64,000 nt of DNA, taken from positions 930,001 to 994,000 of the forward strand of contig NZ_BSNK01000002.1 of assembly GCF_030159955.1 (NCBI RefSeq), written 5' to 3'. The notes under the pieces were generated by a model. It did not search any database and was not told where the DNA came from. It worked only from the letters and a program-made list of their open reading frames with translations. Positions 3,706-22,122 of this stretch are shown here, piece by piece; the first letter of the stretch is position 1, and each line of letters begins with the position of its first letter. A program made the position numbers and the translations under genes. The stretch is from Algimonas ampicilliniresistens. GTDB taxonomy: Bacteria > Pseudomonadota > Alphaproteobacteria > Caulobacterales > Maricaulaceae.

Positions 3706-3784
3706 GGTCTACCTTTCTAGGGCGGGCCAAGCACAGGTTTGGAAGGGGAGGGCGCTCGTTTGAGCCGAATGGGCTCAGCGCTCT

Positions 3785-3890
3785 CTCATCTTCCGGGCGA
3801 ACCCGCAGGACTTGGCACCTGATGCGAAATTGCTTTCGCCGGTTGCCCCGGCGATCAAAGGGCCTTGTCCCTCCCGCCGGTCTTGATGAG
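3785..3890 (-). promoter_or_regulatory. S-box (SAM-I class) riboswitch aptamer upstream of metX
   Basis: On the minus strand the P1 helix is formed by CTCATC (3890-3885) and GATGAG (3790-3785). Inside it are the S-box core elements GAGGGAC, GGCCC, GGGGCAACC, a GCGAAA...TTTCGC hairpin (P3), GGTGCCAAGTCC, and a CGGGTTCGCCCG hairpin (P4) ending in GGAAGATGAG. These match the SAM-I family layout. A second hairpin (TGAGCC/GGCTCA) lies between the aptamer and the GTG start without a T run, so control is more likely on translation than on termination. It would lower metX-metB expression when S-adenosylmethionine is high. Confidence 0.88.
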
Positions 3891-3951
3891 TGCGCGGCAT
3901 ATGGCGGGAAGTGGAGAAGGCGTCAAGCCGATGGCTATTCAGAGAGCGTTC

Positions 3952-17059: not shown

Positions 17060-17830
17060 TTAGCCTTTATGGAAGAAAAGCGCCTGGCTAATCGCCGCTT
17101 TCACATTCGATGGTTTGAATGGTTTGGAGATTAGATAGGCGGGTTCAGGCTTGTCGCCCGTCAGCAACCGCTCTGGGAAGGCCGTGATAAAGATCACGGG
17201 CACATCATGCTCGCCAAGAATGTCATCTACGGCGTCAATGCCGGACGATCCATCTGCCAACTGCACATCGGCTAATACGATACCAGGCTTTCGATCTCCC
17301 GCCATTTTGACGGCGTCTGTCCGAGTGGCCGCAATACCGTCGACACTATGACCCAAGCTTTCGACCAGTTCTTCAATATCGGCAGCGATGATCGGCTCAT
17401 CCTCAATAATAAGAACGTTCGTCCGAAGCTCTTTTTCGATATCGGCTTCAGCTGTTGCCAAAAGGTCTCTGGCCTCATCTTCCGATACAGTCATGACGCT
17501 TGCGATTTCTTCGACGGACAGGCCCTCAAGTGCAGACAGCAGAAAGGCTTGACGTGAAACAGGCGGTAGGCGGCGAATGCGATCAGAGGGGGCGTCGTCA
17601 CCCGATTCAAGGCTTTCAAGTTGAGCGCCTGTAGAGCCCCAAATTCCTAGAAACATCCTGTAAAGAGCTGTTCTTGGATGGAGACCATTTTCGACTGTTG
17701 CGTCTCCGGCCACCAGCGCTTCTAGCGCTGTACGAACATAACGATCGCCTTCGCTCTGAGACCCTGTCAGCGCGCGTGAAAACCGTCTCAGGTACGGCAG
17801 GAATGGTGCATATGTATCGACTAGACTCAC
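17060..17830 (-). CDS. phyR: PhyR, anti-anti-sigma response regulator of the general stress response
   Basis: 256 aa. Residues 1 to about 130 form a sigma-like domain (YLRRFSRALTGSQSEGDRYV, then RQAFLLSALEGLSVEEIASVM). Residues about 138-250 are a receiver domain with IIEDEP, the phospho-acceptor Asp188 in LADVQLADGSSG, and Lys in ISKPF. When phosphorylated, the sigma-like domain binds NepR and frees EcfG. It is divergent from nepR-ecfG, the classic layout. The shared intergenic palindrome gives it its own EcfG-like promoter, which would give positive feedback. Confidence 0.95.
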   Translation of the reverse strand: MSLVDTYAPFLPYLRRFSRALTGSQSEGDRYVRTALEALVAGDATVENGLHPRTALYRMFLGIWGSTGAQLESLESGDDAPSDRIRRLPPVSRQAFLLSALEGLSVEEIASVMTVSEDEARDLLATAEADIEKELRTNVLIIEDEPIIAADIEELVESLGHSVDGIAATRTDAVKMAGDRKPGIVLADVQLADGSSGIDAVDDILGEHDVPVIFITAFPERLLTGDKPEPAYLISKPFKPSNVKAAISQALFFHKG

Positions 17831-17912: not shown

Positions 17913-17937
17913 AACTTGCGGGAACCCTTTTGGTTCC
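17913..17937 (-). promoter_or_regulatory. EcfG-like promoter of phyR (GGAAC-N16-AGTT)
   Basis: Minus strand: GGAAC at 17937-17933 and AGTT at 17916-17913. Its -35 box lies in the same GGGAACC...GGTTCCC palindrome as the opposing nepR promoter. Confidence 0.6.
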
Positions 17938-17945
17938 CAGACGTA
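17921..17945 (+). promoter_or_regulatory. EcfG promoter of nepR-ecfG (GGAAC-N16-CGTA)
   Basis: GGAAC at 17921-17925 and CGTA at 17942-17945, spacer 16 nt. It overlaps the phyR promoter head to head. It also decides the nepR start: an in-frame start at 17916 would lie inside the promoter. Confidence 0.75.
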
Positions 17946-17987: not shown

Positions 17988-18197
17988 ATGACTGACAATA
18001 AGAAACATCCGACCCTCAAGAGTAAGCCCCGGCTTAGCGACACGGATTCTTTCGATAAACAGCCTTTGCCCGATAAGATCGGCCACTCCCTGAAAAACCT
18101 CTATAATGAAGTCCTAGCGGAAGAAGTGCCGGATGATTTTCTGAATCTCCTGCGCCAAGCTGATGCTGCCACGGATGAAGGCGAGGCCTCCAAGTGA
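17988..18197 (+). CDS. nepR: NepR, anti-sigma factor for EcfG
   Basis: 69 aa from ATG 17988. The conserved NepR core is IGHSLKNLYNEVLAEEVPDDFLNLLRQ (about residues 31-57): two helices that clamp the sigma factor and, under stress, switch to phosphorylated PhyR. The N-terminus is basic and likely disordered. An upstream start is rejected because it would begin within the promoter. The stop overlaps the GTG of ecfG (GTGA), so the two are translationally coupled. Confidence 0.93.
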   Translation: MTDNKKHPTLKSKPRLSDTDSFDKQPLPDKIGHSLKNLYNEVLAEEVPDDFLNLLRQADAATDEGEASK

Positions 18198-18814
18198 GTT
18201 CTGTTGTTCAAGACGTCGCAGCAGACGAAGAGGTCCCAGTCTTTGACGAAGAGGTGTTTCGCCAAGAACTGACCGCGCTCATTCCCCACTTGCGAGCTTT
18301 CTCACGCTCGCTGTGCGGCAATGCAACGCTGGCTGATGATGTTGCTCAGGATGCGCTGCTTAAAGCTTGGAAGGCGCGCCACAAGTTTAGGCCTGGGTCG
18401 AACCTCAAGGCATGGACTTTCACGATTTTACGCAATCAGTTCTACTCGATCAAACGTCGATCTTGGCGCGCGACATCATTGGAGCCTGAAGTTGCTGAAC
18501 AGACGATTGTTGCCAACACTGACGCTGAACAGTCCGTGCACCTTAACGAACTCCGGCGTGGGCTCGATATGCTCAAGGATGATCAACGCGAGGCTTTGAT
18601 CTTGGTTGGCGCATCAGGTCTGTCCTATGAAGAAGCGGCGGAAATTTGTGATTGCGCGGTTGGTACAATCAAAAGCCGCGTTAGTCGGGCGCGTAAATCA
18701 TTAGAGACGATCATGGATTCAGGACGTTTTGACGACGAACCCGATAAAGTTCGCGCTCTCGACGCCATGTCAACGATCCTCCAAGAAGCGGATACGATTG
18801 CGGGCAAACCTTAA
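18194..18814 (+). CDS. ecfG: EcfG-type RNA polymerase sigma factor (general stress response)
   Basis: 206 aa from GTG 18194. Region 2 (LIPHLRAFSRSLCGNATLADDVAQDALLKAW, then FKAWTF-like helix NLKAWTFTILRNQF) and region 4 (QREALILVGASGLSYEEAAEICDCAVGTIKSRVSRAR) are standard for ECF15/EcfG. The location next to nepR and phyR confirms the subgroup. It would recognise the GGAAC-N16/17-CGTT sites that surround it, including one driving its own operon. The extended N-terminus (about 20 residues) is acidic. Confidence 0.95.
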   Translation: MSSVVQDVAADEEVPVFDEEVFRQELTALIPHLRAFSRSLCGNATLADDVAQDALLKAWKARHKFRPGSNLKAWTFTILRNQFYSIKRRSWRATSLEPEVAEQTIVANTDAEQSVHLNELRRGLDMLKDDQREALILVGASGLSYEEAAEICDCAVGTIKSRVSRARKSLETIMDSGRFDDEPDKVRALDAMSTILQEADTIAGKP

Positions 18815-18894: not shown

Positions 18895-20619
18895 ATGACC
18901 GTGAGGGGCGACGAAACCACAGAAAATGGAACCCCGGTCAGGCATGATACGCGGTGGTGGCAGAGTGTGCGCCTGCGGTTTGGCCTCTTACTCGCCTTAG
19001 CACTTTTACCGTGGCTTTTACTGTCAGCTCTCGAAACCTATGCGGAGCTTGATCGCGCCCGAGTCTCGCAAAGCCGTCTGGCTGATATTGTGGCCTCCTC
19101 AACGGTCGCAGAAGTCGGGCAGACACTTGAAGCGGGCCGACTTGGCCTTGATGCAGCGCCTCAGATCATCGCTGATTTAGGATGCGAAGCGGGTTCGGCT
19201 GAGGTTCTAGACCGGCTCGGCGTCTACACAGCCCTCATCGTTAAAGACGCGACGAATGCTGTTATCTGCCAGAATCCGTCTTCCGTCTCAGACTTGGTTC
19301 TAGAAAACCCAGATGCGTTTTCAGCTGACAAGCTATTTCGGATTGAGGCTGGACTTTTGGGGACAGGCGACCAAGCGCAGATGGTCGTCGTGCTGCAGAC
19401 GGTTATCCGATCAAGTGGTCACACATACACGCTGATCCTTCCTGAAAACTTGGGCCGCCGCGATGTCTTAGACGTAACGCTTGGTGCCGGATCAAGGATC
19501 ACGCTGACAAAGCTAGATGGAACAGGCATTGTTGGACTGGACAGATCTGAAGAACGAAATCAGTTTTTTCTAGATCGGATCGCCGATGCTGACGTGTCAT
19601 TGCTCGATTACACGAATAGAAATGGTGAAAATCGGCGGAGTGCGGCGAGATACTTTAAATATCTGGGTATTTATGTTTCTGTCGGTCGGCCTGTCCGTTT
19701 CGAAAACATTCTTTCGCTCATCAATCCCTACACATCGGTCATGCTGCCTATCTTAGCATGGTTGGTCGGATTTGGACTGATCTGGATTGGCACACGGTCT
19801 ATGCTGCTAGCCCCGATCAGCAAAGTCAGGCGCACGGCTCGGCTTTTTGCAGGTGGCAAGATGGACTCGCGTGTTAGATTGTCAGATTCTGCGGCGGCTG
19901 AAGTTCAGGGATTGGCCTATTCCTTTAACAGTATGGCGCATCAGCTTCAGGAACGCGATTTACGTATCGCTGATAATATGGATGAAAAAGACACGCTGAT
20001 GCGGGAGATCCATCACCGCGTGAAAAATAATCTACAAATTATCATTAGCCTTCTTAATATGCAGGAGCGCAAGGCCGTCGGCGCGGAAGCCATCGAGGCC
20101 ATTTCTGAGACGCGAACGCGGATCAATGCGATCGCAATCGTCCATCGAGGTCTCTACGAGAGCACCGATCTGCGGGGCATTGATGTCGCTCCGTTCATTT
20201 CCCGGCTGGTTGCATCGATCAGTGAAAGCATTGGAGCCGAAGAAGCGGGCATTAGCGTCAAGCAGTCTGTTGCGCCCTGTCACCTGTCAGCCGACCATGC
20301 GATCCCGGTCGCGCTGTTTATTGTTGAGGCCATCAGCAATGCAGCAGAGCATGGGGTTGAGCGCGGCGGCACTATCCATATCGACATACAGTGTCCTGAA
20401 ACGGGTGTCTTGCAGATCGATGTCGCCGATGACGGTCGAGGCGTCGGTGATCCGGATGCTATGCGCGGTATTGGGACGCGCTTGATGAAAGGCTTCGCCC
20501 GTCAGCTTGCAGGGACACTTGTGTTTCAAGACAATGCGCCAGGCCTGACCGCAAGGCTGACGCTTCCAATCGACGACAGTCCTGAGCAACCGTTTCAGGT
20601 AAGCCAGAAGCGTCGCTAG
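18895..20619 (+). CDS. HisKA_2-family sensor histidine kinase, probable GSR kinase (PhyK-like)
   Basis: 574 aa. TM1 lies at about 26-46, followed by a periplasmic sensor region of roughly 230 residues, TM2 at about 283-303, a HAMP-like linker (ARLFAGGKMDSRVRL), and a HisKA_2 dimerisation domain with phospho-His near 372 in REIHHRVKNNLQIIISLLNMQ. It ends in a HATPase domain (EAISNAAEHG, DDGRGVGD). HisKA_2/HWE kinases next to phyR-nepR-ecfG usually phosphorylate PhyR. It lies 80 bp after ecfG, and no EcfG promoter is visible in that gap. Confidence 0.88.
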   Translation: MTVRGDETTENGTPVRHDTRWWQSVRLRFGLLLALALLPWLLLSALETYAELDRARVSQSRLADIVASSTVAEVGQTLEAGRLGLDAAPQIIADLGCEAGSAEVLDRLGVYTALIVKDATNAVICQNPSSVSDLVLENPDAFSADKLFRIEAGLLGTGDQAQMVVVLQTVIRSSGHTYTLILPENLGRRDVLDVTLGAGSRITLTKLDGTGIVGLDRSEERNQFFLDRIADADVSLLDYTNRNGENRRSAARYFKYLGIYVSVGRPVRFENILSLINPYTSVMLPILAWLVGFGLIWIGTRSMLLAPISKVRRTARLFAGGKMDSRVRLSDSAAAEVQGLAYSFNSMAHQLQERDLRIADNMDEKDTLMREIHHRVKNNLQIIISLLNMQERKAVGAEAIEAISETRTRINAIAIVHRGLYESTDLRGIDVAPFISRLVASISESIGAEEAGISVKQSVAPCHLSADHAIPVALFIVEAISNAAEHGVERGGTIHIDIQCPETGVLQIDVADDGRGVGDPDAMRGIGTRLMKGFARQLAGTLVFQDNAPGLTARLTLPIDDSPEQPFQVSQKRR

Positions 20620-20641: not shown

Positions 20642-20744
20642 GAAAATGAAAAGCCCGGACGCCGTGCAGGGGAAGAGCGGGGGTCCGGGCTTATGAAACA
20701 CCGGGATGAAGGGGAGTTACCGGGTGTTTTATGCTGTTGTTAAA
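20642..20744 (-). ncRNA. Candidate GsrN-like stress sRNA, two C-rich hairpin loops
   Basis: Minus strand, about 100 nt, directly behind an EcfG-type promoter. Hairpin 1 pairs 20728-20720 with 20704-20697 (8 bp, one bulge) and exposes a 15-nt loop containing CTCCCCTT. Hairpin 2 is a perfect 10-bp stem (20692-20683 with 20660-20651) with a 22-nt loop containing CTCTTCCCC, followed by TTCATTTT as terminator. No ORF fits. C-rich loops, EcfG dependence and the position beside the GSR kinase parallel Caulobacter GsrN, an sRNA transcribed by the stress sigma factor. Sequence homology to GsrN was not tested. The gene converges with the kinase. Confidence 0.72.
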
Positions 20745-20749
20745 GTGAA

Positions 20750-20775
20750 TACGCCCGAGCTTTAAATTCGGTTCC
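20750..20775 (-). promoter_or_regulatory. EcfG-type promoter of the sRNA (GGAAC-N17-CGTA)
   Basis: Minus strand: GGAAC at 20775-20771, 17-nt spacer, CGTA at 20753-20750. Transcription would start near 20743 and read into the two-hairpin RNA. No protein gene lies downstream on this strand before the kinase 3' end. Confidence 0.7.
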
Positions 20776-20865: not shown

Positions 20866-20891
20866 GGAACGAATCCAGGGGTCTTGTCGTT
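20866..20891 (+). promoter_or_regulatory. EcfG promoter of the DUF883 gene
   Basis: GGAAC at 20866-20870, 17-nt spacer, CGTT at 20888-20891: exact consensus, 64 nt before the start codon at 20956. Confidence 0.82.
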
Positions 20892-20955: not shown

Positions 20956-21315
20956 ATGGCGACCGTCAAGACAACCACTCCCAAAGTTACAAAAAAAACG
21001 ACAACAAAAGCCCCAAGCGTTACGACAACGAGCGCCAATGTCGTCCCAATGACGAACGATATTTCTCAGCAACTTGAAACGCTTCGTAATGACCTAAAAT
21101 TGCTTGCTAAGTCTGTTAAAGAACAGACTCTTGCAAAAGTTGAAGGCCGCACTGAAACGGTTAAAACTGTCGCTGTTGATCAGAAAGACGCTGCTGTCGC
21201 TCGTTATGACGAGCTGACCACAAAAGCTGAAATTCAGATCCGCGAAAAGCCTCTTACTTCGATGGCTATTGCCGCTGGTGCTGGTCTTGTGCTCGGCGCT
21301 ATCTTACGCAAATAG
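20956..21315 (+). CDS. DUF883 / YqjD-like membrane-anchored protein
   Basis: 119 aa from ATG 20956, with GAAGGAG 7-8 nt upstream. A Thr/Lys-rich N-terminus precedes an amphipathic helical region (QQLETLRNDLKLLAKSVKEQT to about 90). A C-terminal membrane helix, REKPLTSMAIAAGAGLVLGAILRK, is the typical ElaB/YqjD/DUF883 ending. In E. coli the family ties ribosomes to the membrane in stationary phase, and a similar role is only inferred here. The EcfG promoter is exact. A terminator separates it from the DUF1469 gene. Confidence 0.85.
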   Translation: MATVKTTTPKVTKKTTTKAPSVTTTSANVVPMTNDISQQLETLRNDLKLLAKSVKEQTLAKVEGRTETVKTVAVDQKDAAVARYDELTTKAEIQIREKPLTSMAIAAGAGLVLGAILRK

Positions 21316-22085: not shown

Positions 22086-22122
22086 AACGCTCGGAACTCC
22101 TCGTGAGACCGGGCGTTTCTTA
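22086..22122 (+). terminator. Imperfect terminator-like hairpin that contains an EcfG promoter
   Basis: AAACGCTCGG pairs imperfectly with CCGGGCGTTT around a 14-nt loop, followed by a T-rich stretch. It may end the DUF1469 transcript. The same bases contain the promoter at 22093-22117. Confidence 0.5.
22093..22117 (+). promoter_or_regulatory. EcfG promoter close to a start codon
   Basis: GGAAC at 22093-22097, 16-nt spacer, CGTT at 22114-22117: exact consensus. The -10 element ends only 8 nt before the ATG at 22126, which predicts a leaderless or nearly leaderless mRNA. Confidence 0.65.

Follow-up and report, generated by a model that had tools for sequence, protein, structure and literature searches.

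A predicted EcfG-controlled small RNA with two C-rich hairpin loops beside the general stress response locus of Algimonas ampicilliniresistens

The 64,000-nucleotide stretch of Algimonas ampicilliniresistens DNA analysed here (the window) very likely carries, on its minus strand, a genuine small RNA gene controlled by the stress sigma factor EcfG, as judged from sequence. The predicted RNA exposes the motif UCCCC in the loops of two hairpins. On balance, a reading is slightly favoured in which this EcfG-driven twin-loop RNA would lower translation at AAGGGGA sites under stress, mainly those of import genes.

Promoter, hairpins and predicted fold

An EcfG-type promoter, GGAAC-N17-CGTA, occupies positions 20750..20775 of the minus strand, with its -35 element at 20771-20775 and its -10 element at 20750-20753. 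It is followed on the same strand by a small RNA gene of about 100 nt, delimited by a model match (20642..20747), whose start site probably lies near 20741-20744. Both the promoter and a two-hairpin RNA with C-rich loops had been described in the initial annotation, and both were found again by direct reading and pattern search. The gap of about 10 nt given there between promoter and RNA holds when counted from the likely start site, whereas hairpin 1 lies about 20 nt past the -10 element. Hairpin 1 (20696..20729, minus strand) consists of 7 bp, a C.C 1x1 mismatch, 2 G-C pairs and a 14-nt C-rich loop. Within this loop, CUCCCCUUC (20708..20716, minus strand) is the predicted pairing site, with GAAGGGGAG as its complement; it is invariant in five of five copies, and its CCCC is unpaired with a probability of 1.0. 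Hairpin 2 (20651..20692, minus strand) is a probable intrinsic terminator built from a perfect 10-bp stem (AAGCCCGGAC/GTCCGGGCTT), a short inner helix and a second C-rich loop, and it is followed by CTTTTCATTTT. Its loop UUCCCCUGC (20666..20674, minus strand) includes UCCCCUGCACGG, likewise invariant in 5/5 copies, and the CCCC is again unpaired with a probability of 1.0. The earlier description of this last hairpin as a perfect 10-bp terminator stem is correct for the stem, but the U-rich tail CTTTTCATTTTC (20642..20653, minus strand) is interrupted, and a simple terminator scan of the window, which was limited to loops of 3-8, did not list hairpin 2.

The RNA folds at -32.7 kcal/mol, compared with -18.2 +/- 2.6 for shuffled sequences (z -5.57; none of 200 shuffles was as good). 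In addition, when both strands of the window were searched by the script's criterion, a single pair of UCCCC hairpin loops spaced 25-60 nt apart was found, and it is that of this RNA. The statement that no open reading frame is present proved nearly right: three mechanical ORFs of at least 20 aa (21, 79 and 110 aa, with GTG or TTG starts) overlap the RNA, the longest of them touching its 5' end only.

The pattern GGAAC-N16-18-CGTW was found 11 times in the window against 2.56 expected, and none of 100 shuffles reached 11; because of this enrichment, the promoter match has little weight by itself. Its kept position in relatives, described below, argues more strongly than the match within the window. 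The enriched sites include 17921-17945 (before nepR-ecfG), 20866-20891 and 22093-22117, and the window is perhaps a dense region of the general stress response (GSR) regulon.

Genomic setting and conservation in the Algimonas clade

The genes on one side of the RNA constitute, by their Pfam domains, a GSR locus: a divergent PhyR response regulator (17060..17830, minus strand; PF22029/PF22233/PF00072), a NepR anti-sigma factor (17988..18197, plus strand; PF18557), an EcfG-family sigma factor (18194..18814, plus strand; Pfam sigma regions 2 and 4) placed between NepR and the kinase, and a sensor kinase (18895..20619, plus strand; HisKA_2/HWE and HATPase, HAMP under its cut-off) convergent with the RNA gene. 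The proposed small RNA gene with a stress-sigma-type promoter next to the GSR kinase is thus supported, as an EcfG-type promoter adjoins this PhyR/NepR/EcfG/HisKA_2-kinase locus. On the other side, divergent from the RNA promoter, lies a gene for a DUF883-type membrane protein (20956..21315, plus strand; PF19029), which is preceded by a second EcfG-type promoter, GGAAC-N17-CGTT (20866..20891, plus strand).

DNA-level matches to the RNA were obtained in 5/41 genomes, including its own (G000, G015, G018, G007 and G006). In all five of these clear copies, GGAAC-N16/17-CGTA stands 27-28 nt ahead of the model start while the spacers have diverged, and neither CTCCCCTTC nor TCCCCTGCACGG varies. In a MAFFT alignment of the five core sequences, double changes occur in 4/23 pairs, a count reached by none of 500 shuffles, for a structure that was itself drawn from the same five sequences. 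The check for kept loops and compensatory stem changes in related genomes was therefore positive, with loops kept in 5/5 and stems changing in pairs.

The neighbourhood is kept to differing degrees. In all five genomes a DUF883-type gene is the divergent neighbour of the RNA (identified by Pfam in the window and by likeness in the other four). The kinase adjoins the RNA in three of them, namely this genome, G015 and G018. In G007 the RNA faces another gene, DUF3604-like by eye, and in G006 the RNA and EcfG are on separate contigs; neither has an adjacent kinase. These two genomes bear on the possibility that the element is a mere terminator of the convergent kinase gene with a chance promoter match and without any regulatory RNA. 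Such a reading draws on the distance of 22 bp from the kinase stop codon and on the commonness of the promoter pattern in the window, yet the U-rich tail is found on the minus strand alone, and G006 and G007, which lack an adjacent kinase, retain the promoter, hairpin 1 and both loops; this makes such a reading very improbable.

The distribution of the small RNA gene was followed with a model of the window RNA, R1. Clear copies were present in 5/19 genus genomes, a sixth copy (locus L042 in G016) scored 43 bits, and 12/19 genomes gave no match. Since clear copies are confined to 5/19 genus genomes, the GSR does not require this RNA. Upstream of the RNA, G015, G018, G007 and G016 have a small gene whose C-terminal end is similar among them (by eye), with no Pfam match in the three copies scanned; because of this like upstream gene, the diverged G016 copy is likely orthologous. 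A contig search starting from the kinase protein brought up no relatives, and named loci were obtained with an EcfG alignment as query. On 50 named EcfG loci, a part of the 80 fetched, some of which end at contig ends, R1 detected a single clear copy, in L092 (uncultured Algimonas), besides weak matches of at most 19.9 bits in L120 and L109. Accordingly, the suggestion that the RNA belongs to the GSR locus as a conserved component in this lineage holds for the three of five copies beside the kinase, but not for the two beside other genes, the 12/19 genus genomes that R1 does not match or the EcfG loci at large, of which 1/50 has a clear copy.

Relation to GsrN

GsrN, a small RNA of Caulobacter, is cleaved to a stable 5' form. 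It is EcfG-driven and activates katG via a C-rich loop, and EcfG-controlled RNAs beside GSR loci have been proposed for Caulobacteraceae and Rhizobiaceae (PMC5869019). Tien et al. put forward the view that small RNAs driven by EcfG are widespread in the stress response of alphaproteobacteria, the candidates being identified mostly by position and promoter (PMC5869019). A GsrN pattern combining an EcfG promoter with the pairing sites of Table 1 in that source (PMC5869019) matched 33/119 genomes of family f3, presumably Caulobacteraceae, against 10 for the reversed control. Nearly all matches shared one longer core and some lay near EcfG; the designation of the f3 RNAs as GsrN rests on the Table 1 pattern, the promoter and, for some, EcfG nearness. 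These RNAs share a fold in which one long stem has a C6-C8 internal stretch, together with an inner hairpin.

The initial annotation had called the window RNA GsrN-like and recommended a covariance search with the GsrN family. In that search, the GsrN model R2, built from 10 f3 sequences, did not match the window RNA. It matched 35/201 order genomes, all within f3, and gave a single weak match in 138 family genomes (G117, 28.1 bits); the 19 genus genomes, this one included, yielded no match. Applied to the window and six homologue loci, R2 yielded five hits of at most 12.1 bits, none of them at the window RNA; a hit overlapping the L042 copy, at 11.5 bits and E 0.87, is at chance level. Conversely, R1 on 12 GsrN loci gave three weak hits, none at GsrN. 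Furthermore, the long 5' stem with a C-rich internal stretch that marks GsrN is absent from the window RNA fold. GsrN membership therefore fails, as R2 does not match the RNA and the folds differ, and likeness by descent was not upheld by either model.

The two RNAs have in common a length of about 100 nt, an EcfG-type promoter and an exposed C-rich stretch, and GsrN too is often near the GSR locus, although its C-rich stretch is CGCCCCCCGACUU-like whereas that of the window RNA is CUCCCCUUC. Promoter, C-rich loop, position near the GSR locus and length would all suit a true GsrN orthologue. Against this stand the restriction of R2 matches to f3 within the order (35/201), the one weak match in 138 family genomes, the lack of any in this genome or at the RNA, and the different folds, so that orthology is refuted for the sequence and fold models and is extremely improbable overall. 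By sequence and fold, the window RNA is best regarded as an RNA different from GsrN, and by analogy it may do a GsrN kind of job.

Comparison with other alphaproteobacterial RNAs

Further parallels are offered by other families. The SmelA075/SmelA099 and alpha-r14 RNAs carry an anti-Shine-Dalgarno motif in all loops on variable stems, and the predicted targets of NfeR1 are mostly transport mRNAs (PMC3927594, PMC7143759). These cuckoo/alpha-r14 RNAs, including NfeR1, and the window RNA have in common hairpins with variable stems and one anti-Shine-Dalgarno-like motif open in each loop. However, the former have three or four hairpins with CCUCCUCCC, while the window RNA has two with UCCCC, and NfeR1 has a sigma-70 promoter instead of an EcfG-type one. 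When the structural definition of the cuckoo RNAs (several hairpins, variable stems, the motif open in all loops) was applied, the window RNA agreed with it through UCCCC in both loops; the cuckoo motif CCUCCUCCC itself was not found in its loops, CUCCCCUUC and UUCCCCUGC. Among its relatives in genus g17 (L050, L055 and L058), the loops carry CUCCUCCCC or a shortened form, with CUCCUCCCC in L050 and L058, and by sequence such loops could be intermediate between the cuckoo motif and UCCCC.

Two further groups show partial likeness. CcsR1-4 of Rhodobacter sphaeroides, which are under RpoHI/RpoHII, arise by processing of the ccaF1 transcript, and stress-sigma RNAs are said to lie often beside short DUF1127 genes in alphaproteobacteria, as at the CIN1 locus (PMC10253847, PMC8307010). 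Stress-sigma-type control is common to CcsR1-4 and the window RNA, but CcsR is the 3' part of a DUF1127 transcript, whereas the window RNA is encoded by a free-standing gene with the kinase and the DUF883-type gene (Pfam) as neighbours. In Caulobacter, SisA represses TonB receptors via UUUCCUCCCU; the repressed targets of SisA-D/alpha-r8 are rich in TonB receptors and transporters, and no promoter motif common to the four is reported (PMC12559287). An anti-Shine-Dalgarno motif occurs both there and in the window RNA, although in SisA-D it is a 10-mer, UUUCCUCCCU, that is single-stranded and follows a weak hairpin, and in the window RNA it lies in loops; UUUCCUCCCU, the trait of alpha-r8 and MmgR/SisA, is absent from the window RNA sequence.

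No Rfam gathering score was reached at the RNA or in 17 homologue loci by the models of Rfam, which may not include a cuckoo model. The best sub-threshold hit at the RNA was Scr3202 (27.2 bits vs 52), and relaxed thresholds gave nothing convincing. Elsewhere in the window, Rfam placed a SAM-I (S box) riboswitch (RF00162) at 3783-3892 on the minus strand, where it scored 72.1 bits (gathering score 44.4). Among titles and abstract beginnings, mostly from outside subscription journals, no report of the window RNA and no paper joining Algimonas with small RNAs was found, and twin C-rich loops under an EcfG promoter seem to be a new combination.

Candidate target sites and proposed action

The canonical Shine-Dalgarno sequence is AGGAGG. 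The loops had been called anti-Shine-Dalgarno-like, and they are indeed C-rich, exposed and suited to G-rich ribosome-binding sites, but their complement is AGGGGA, not AGGAGG. Across this genome, AAGGGGA-N3-13-ATG was counted 42 times and its reversal 15 times. AAGGAGA sites are likewise enriched (62 vs 17 in the reversed control), and AAGGGGA may be a plain ribosome-binding site in its own right. Of the ORFs of at least 60 aa behind AAGGGGA sites, importer or TonB-receptor domains were found in 9/25 (one POT, five MFS/sugar porters, one SSF and two TonB receptors), in a set that retains L217, whose start lies inside a PrmA-like protein and is probably no real start. Behind AAGGAGA sites, the corresponding count was 1/40, with 40 of 42 ORFs scanned and L365 and L381 left out. 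The difference gives a one-sided Fisher p of 0.0005 for a grouping made post hoc and for Pfam cut-offs that differed among the scans of either set (0.001 in some, 1e-5 in others). L201 (DUF4212) and L244 (an outer-membrane barrel of the control set) were not scored as importers.

AAGGGGA sites recur at the aligned homologue start in five G000/G015 pairs and one G000/G018 pair, counts that have no conservation control behind them. The base after AAGGGGA is a G, which would extend the pairing with loop 1, in only 5/42 sites, and longer complementarity to loop 1 was not seen in the 42. One TonB receptor leader with a site lies at G000:C2:85931-85944 (L220). A 31-residue ORF (L214 in G000, L319 in G015) is 93.5% identical between the two genomes with the same start region, AAGGGGATAACCATG, in both, and it is possibly a small membrane protein and a candidate target.

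The following course of events is proposed. The neighbouring kinase would activate PhyR, by which EcfG would be freed from NepR and could transcribe the small RNA gene. The product would fold into two hairpins with a UCCCC loop on each, the second also ending transcription. A UCCCCUU loop would pair directly with AAGGGGA ribosome-binding sites, possibly with help from Hfq, and under stress this would reduce translation of a set of mRNAs, notably those for importers and TonB receptors. Such blocking of ribosome-binding sites would work in the manner of the cuckoo/alpha-r14 and alpha-r8 RNAs. Repression of import genes is considered the most likely action of the RNA, with an about even chance of being right. 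Against it speaks the example of GsrN, the RNA closest in function, whose best-studied target is activated.

The same loops could instead act in other ways. Activation of stress mRNAs by pairing with G-rich leaders has a precedent in GsrN and katG, where an EcfG-driven RNA acts by a C-rich loop of similar chemistry (PMC5869019). The sites examined here are, however, ribosome-binding sites, where pairing usually represses, and activation is unlikely. It has also been considered that the loops chiefly capture another RNA, as a sponge, or a protein rather than mRNAs. Twin copies of one loop motif in a single RNA would suit a decoy, and CrfA/SisA shows that G/A-rich RNAs can bind such motifs (PMC12559287); but loops 1 and 2 differ outside UCCCC, each having a form of its own that the five core copies conserve, and capture of this kind is rather improbable.

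A wider class of twin-loop RNAs

Beyond the five core copies, R1 matched 24/138 family genomes (E 0.01 or less) and 30/399 order genomes. Many weak R1 and R3 hits were rejected as class members and not used, since they are plain terminators whose two hairpins do not both carry the loop motif. The motif is present in both hairpins at loci including L041, L042, L043, L044, L047, L050, L055 and L058, and in family f2 at L171; loci L045, L046 and L060 lie outside the R1 matches that were judged. In 15 sequences whose alignment was fitted to the proposed two-hairpin structure, both-side changes were found in 22/23 pairs (hairpin 1, 9/9; hairpin 2, 13/14), and 93.3% of cells were paired compared with 30.3-47.2% in slid controls. 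This set excluded L051 (near-identical to L050), L052, L053 and hits lacking the loop motif. The CCCC of both loops was unpaired with a probability of at least 0.96 in the 13 sequences folded. Model R3, built from the 15 sequences, matched 22/40 genomes, several of them weakly; on 39 of the 80 named EcfG loci it found the L092 copy again, L115 at 28 bits and others at about 20 bits or less. One R3 match, L384, has GGAAC-N16-CGTA adjoining a two-hairpin RNA with altered loops. The two-UCCCC pattern alone is uninformative, because in many genus genomes its matches are about as frequent as those of the reversed control.

Promoters vary across the class. Among the 16 places examined, GGAAC-N16/17-CGTA belongs to the five core copies. 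L042 has GGAAC-N17-AGTT and L041 has GGAAC-N16-AGTT at -78. In g17, CGAAC-N15/16-CGTT lies upstream of the RNA in L050, L051, L055 and L058 and is conserved despite spacers that differ between L050/L051, L055 and L058; a variant of EcfG or a different ECF sigma factor perhaps drives this branch. No EcfG-like promoter was found at L043, L044, L047 or L052, and the sole match at L053 looks like chance.

A broader evolutionary interpretation is tentatively put forward. The lineage might have rebuilt the post-transcriptional arm of its GSR from an unrelated twin-loop blocker of ribosome-binding sites, a member of the wider class present in this family and in others of the order, which was brought under EcfG control and became established at the stress locus in the place of GsrN, stopping nutrient uptake instead of boosting catalase. 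Other class members would have taken other promoters or come to lie behind other genes, so that one RNA module would have been wired repeatedly to different stress signals. The case presented here, with covarying stems, invariant loops and a kept promoter in a family with one weak GsrN-model match in 138 genomes, suggests that EcfG-driven stress RNAs need not be homologous. Whether the GSR regularly recruits an RNA directed against ribosome-binding sites, and whether import is the process that is shut off, can now be tested.

Related motifs were also noted in other contexts. At L041 (G073, 900-1400), small entericidin-like lipoprotein genes stand in tandem (by eye); one of them has a GGAAC..TGTT-type promoter and is followed by a UUCCCC hairpin and a terminator matching R1 (29.3 bits); here the loop motif would also occur within an mRNA tail. 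At L047 (G077, 1501-1601), a two-hairpin UUCCCC element lies directly 3' of a recA-like frame and ahead of an alaS-like frame (by eye). Finally, a second conserved element of about 41-49 nt, CTCCCC...CCGC...CTCTCCCC, was seen by eye among the pattern matches in 15/19 genus genomes. It was not seen among the pattern matches for G000, G001, G008 and G013, and examples are located at G014:C2:406622-406664 and G015:C1:1473326-1473373.
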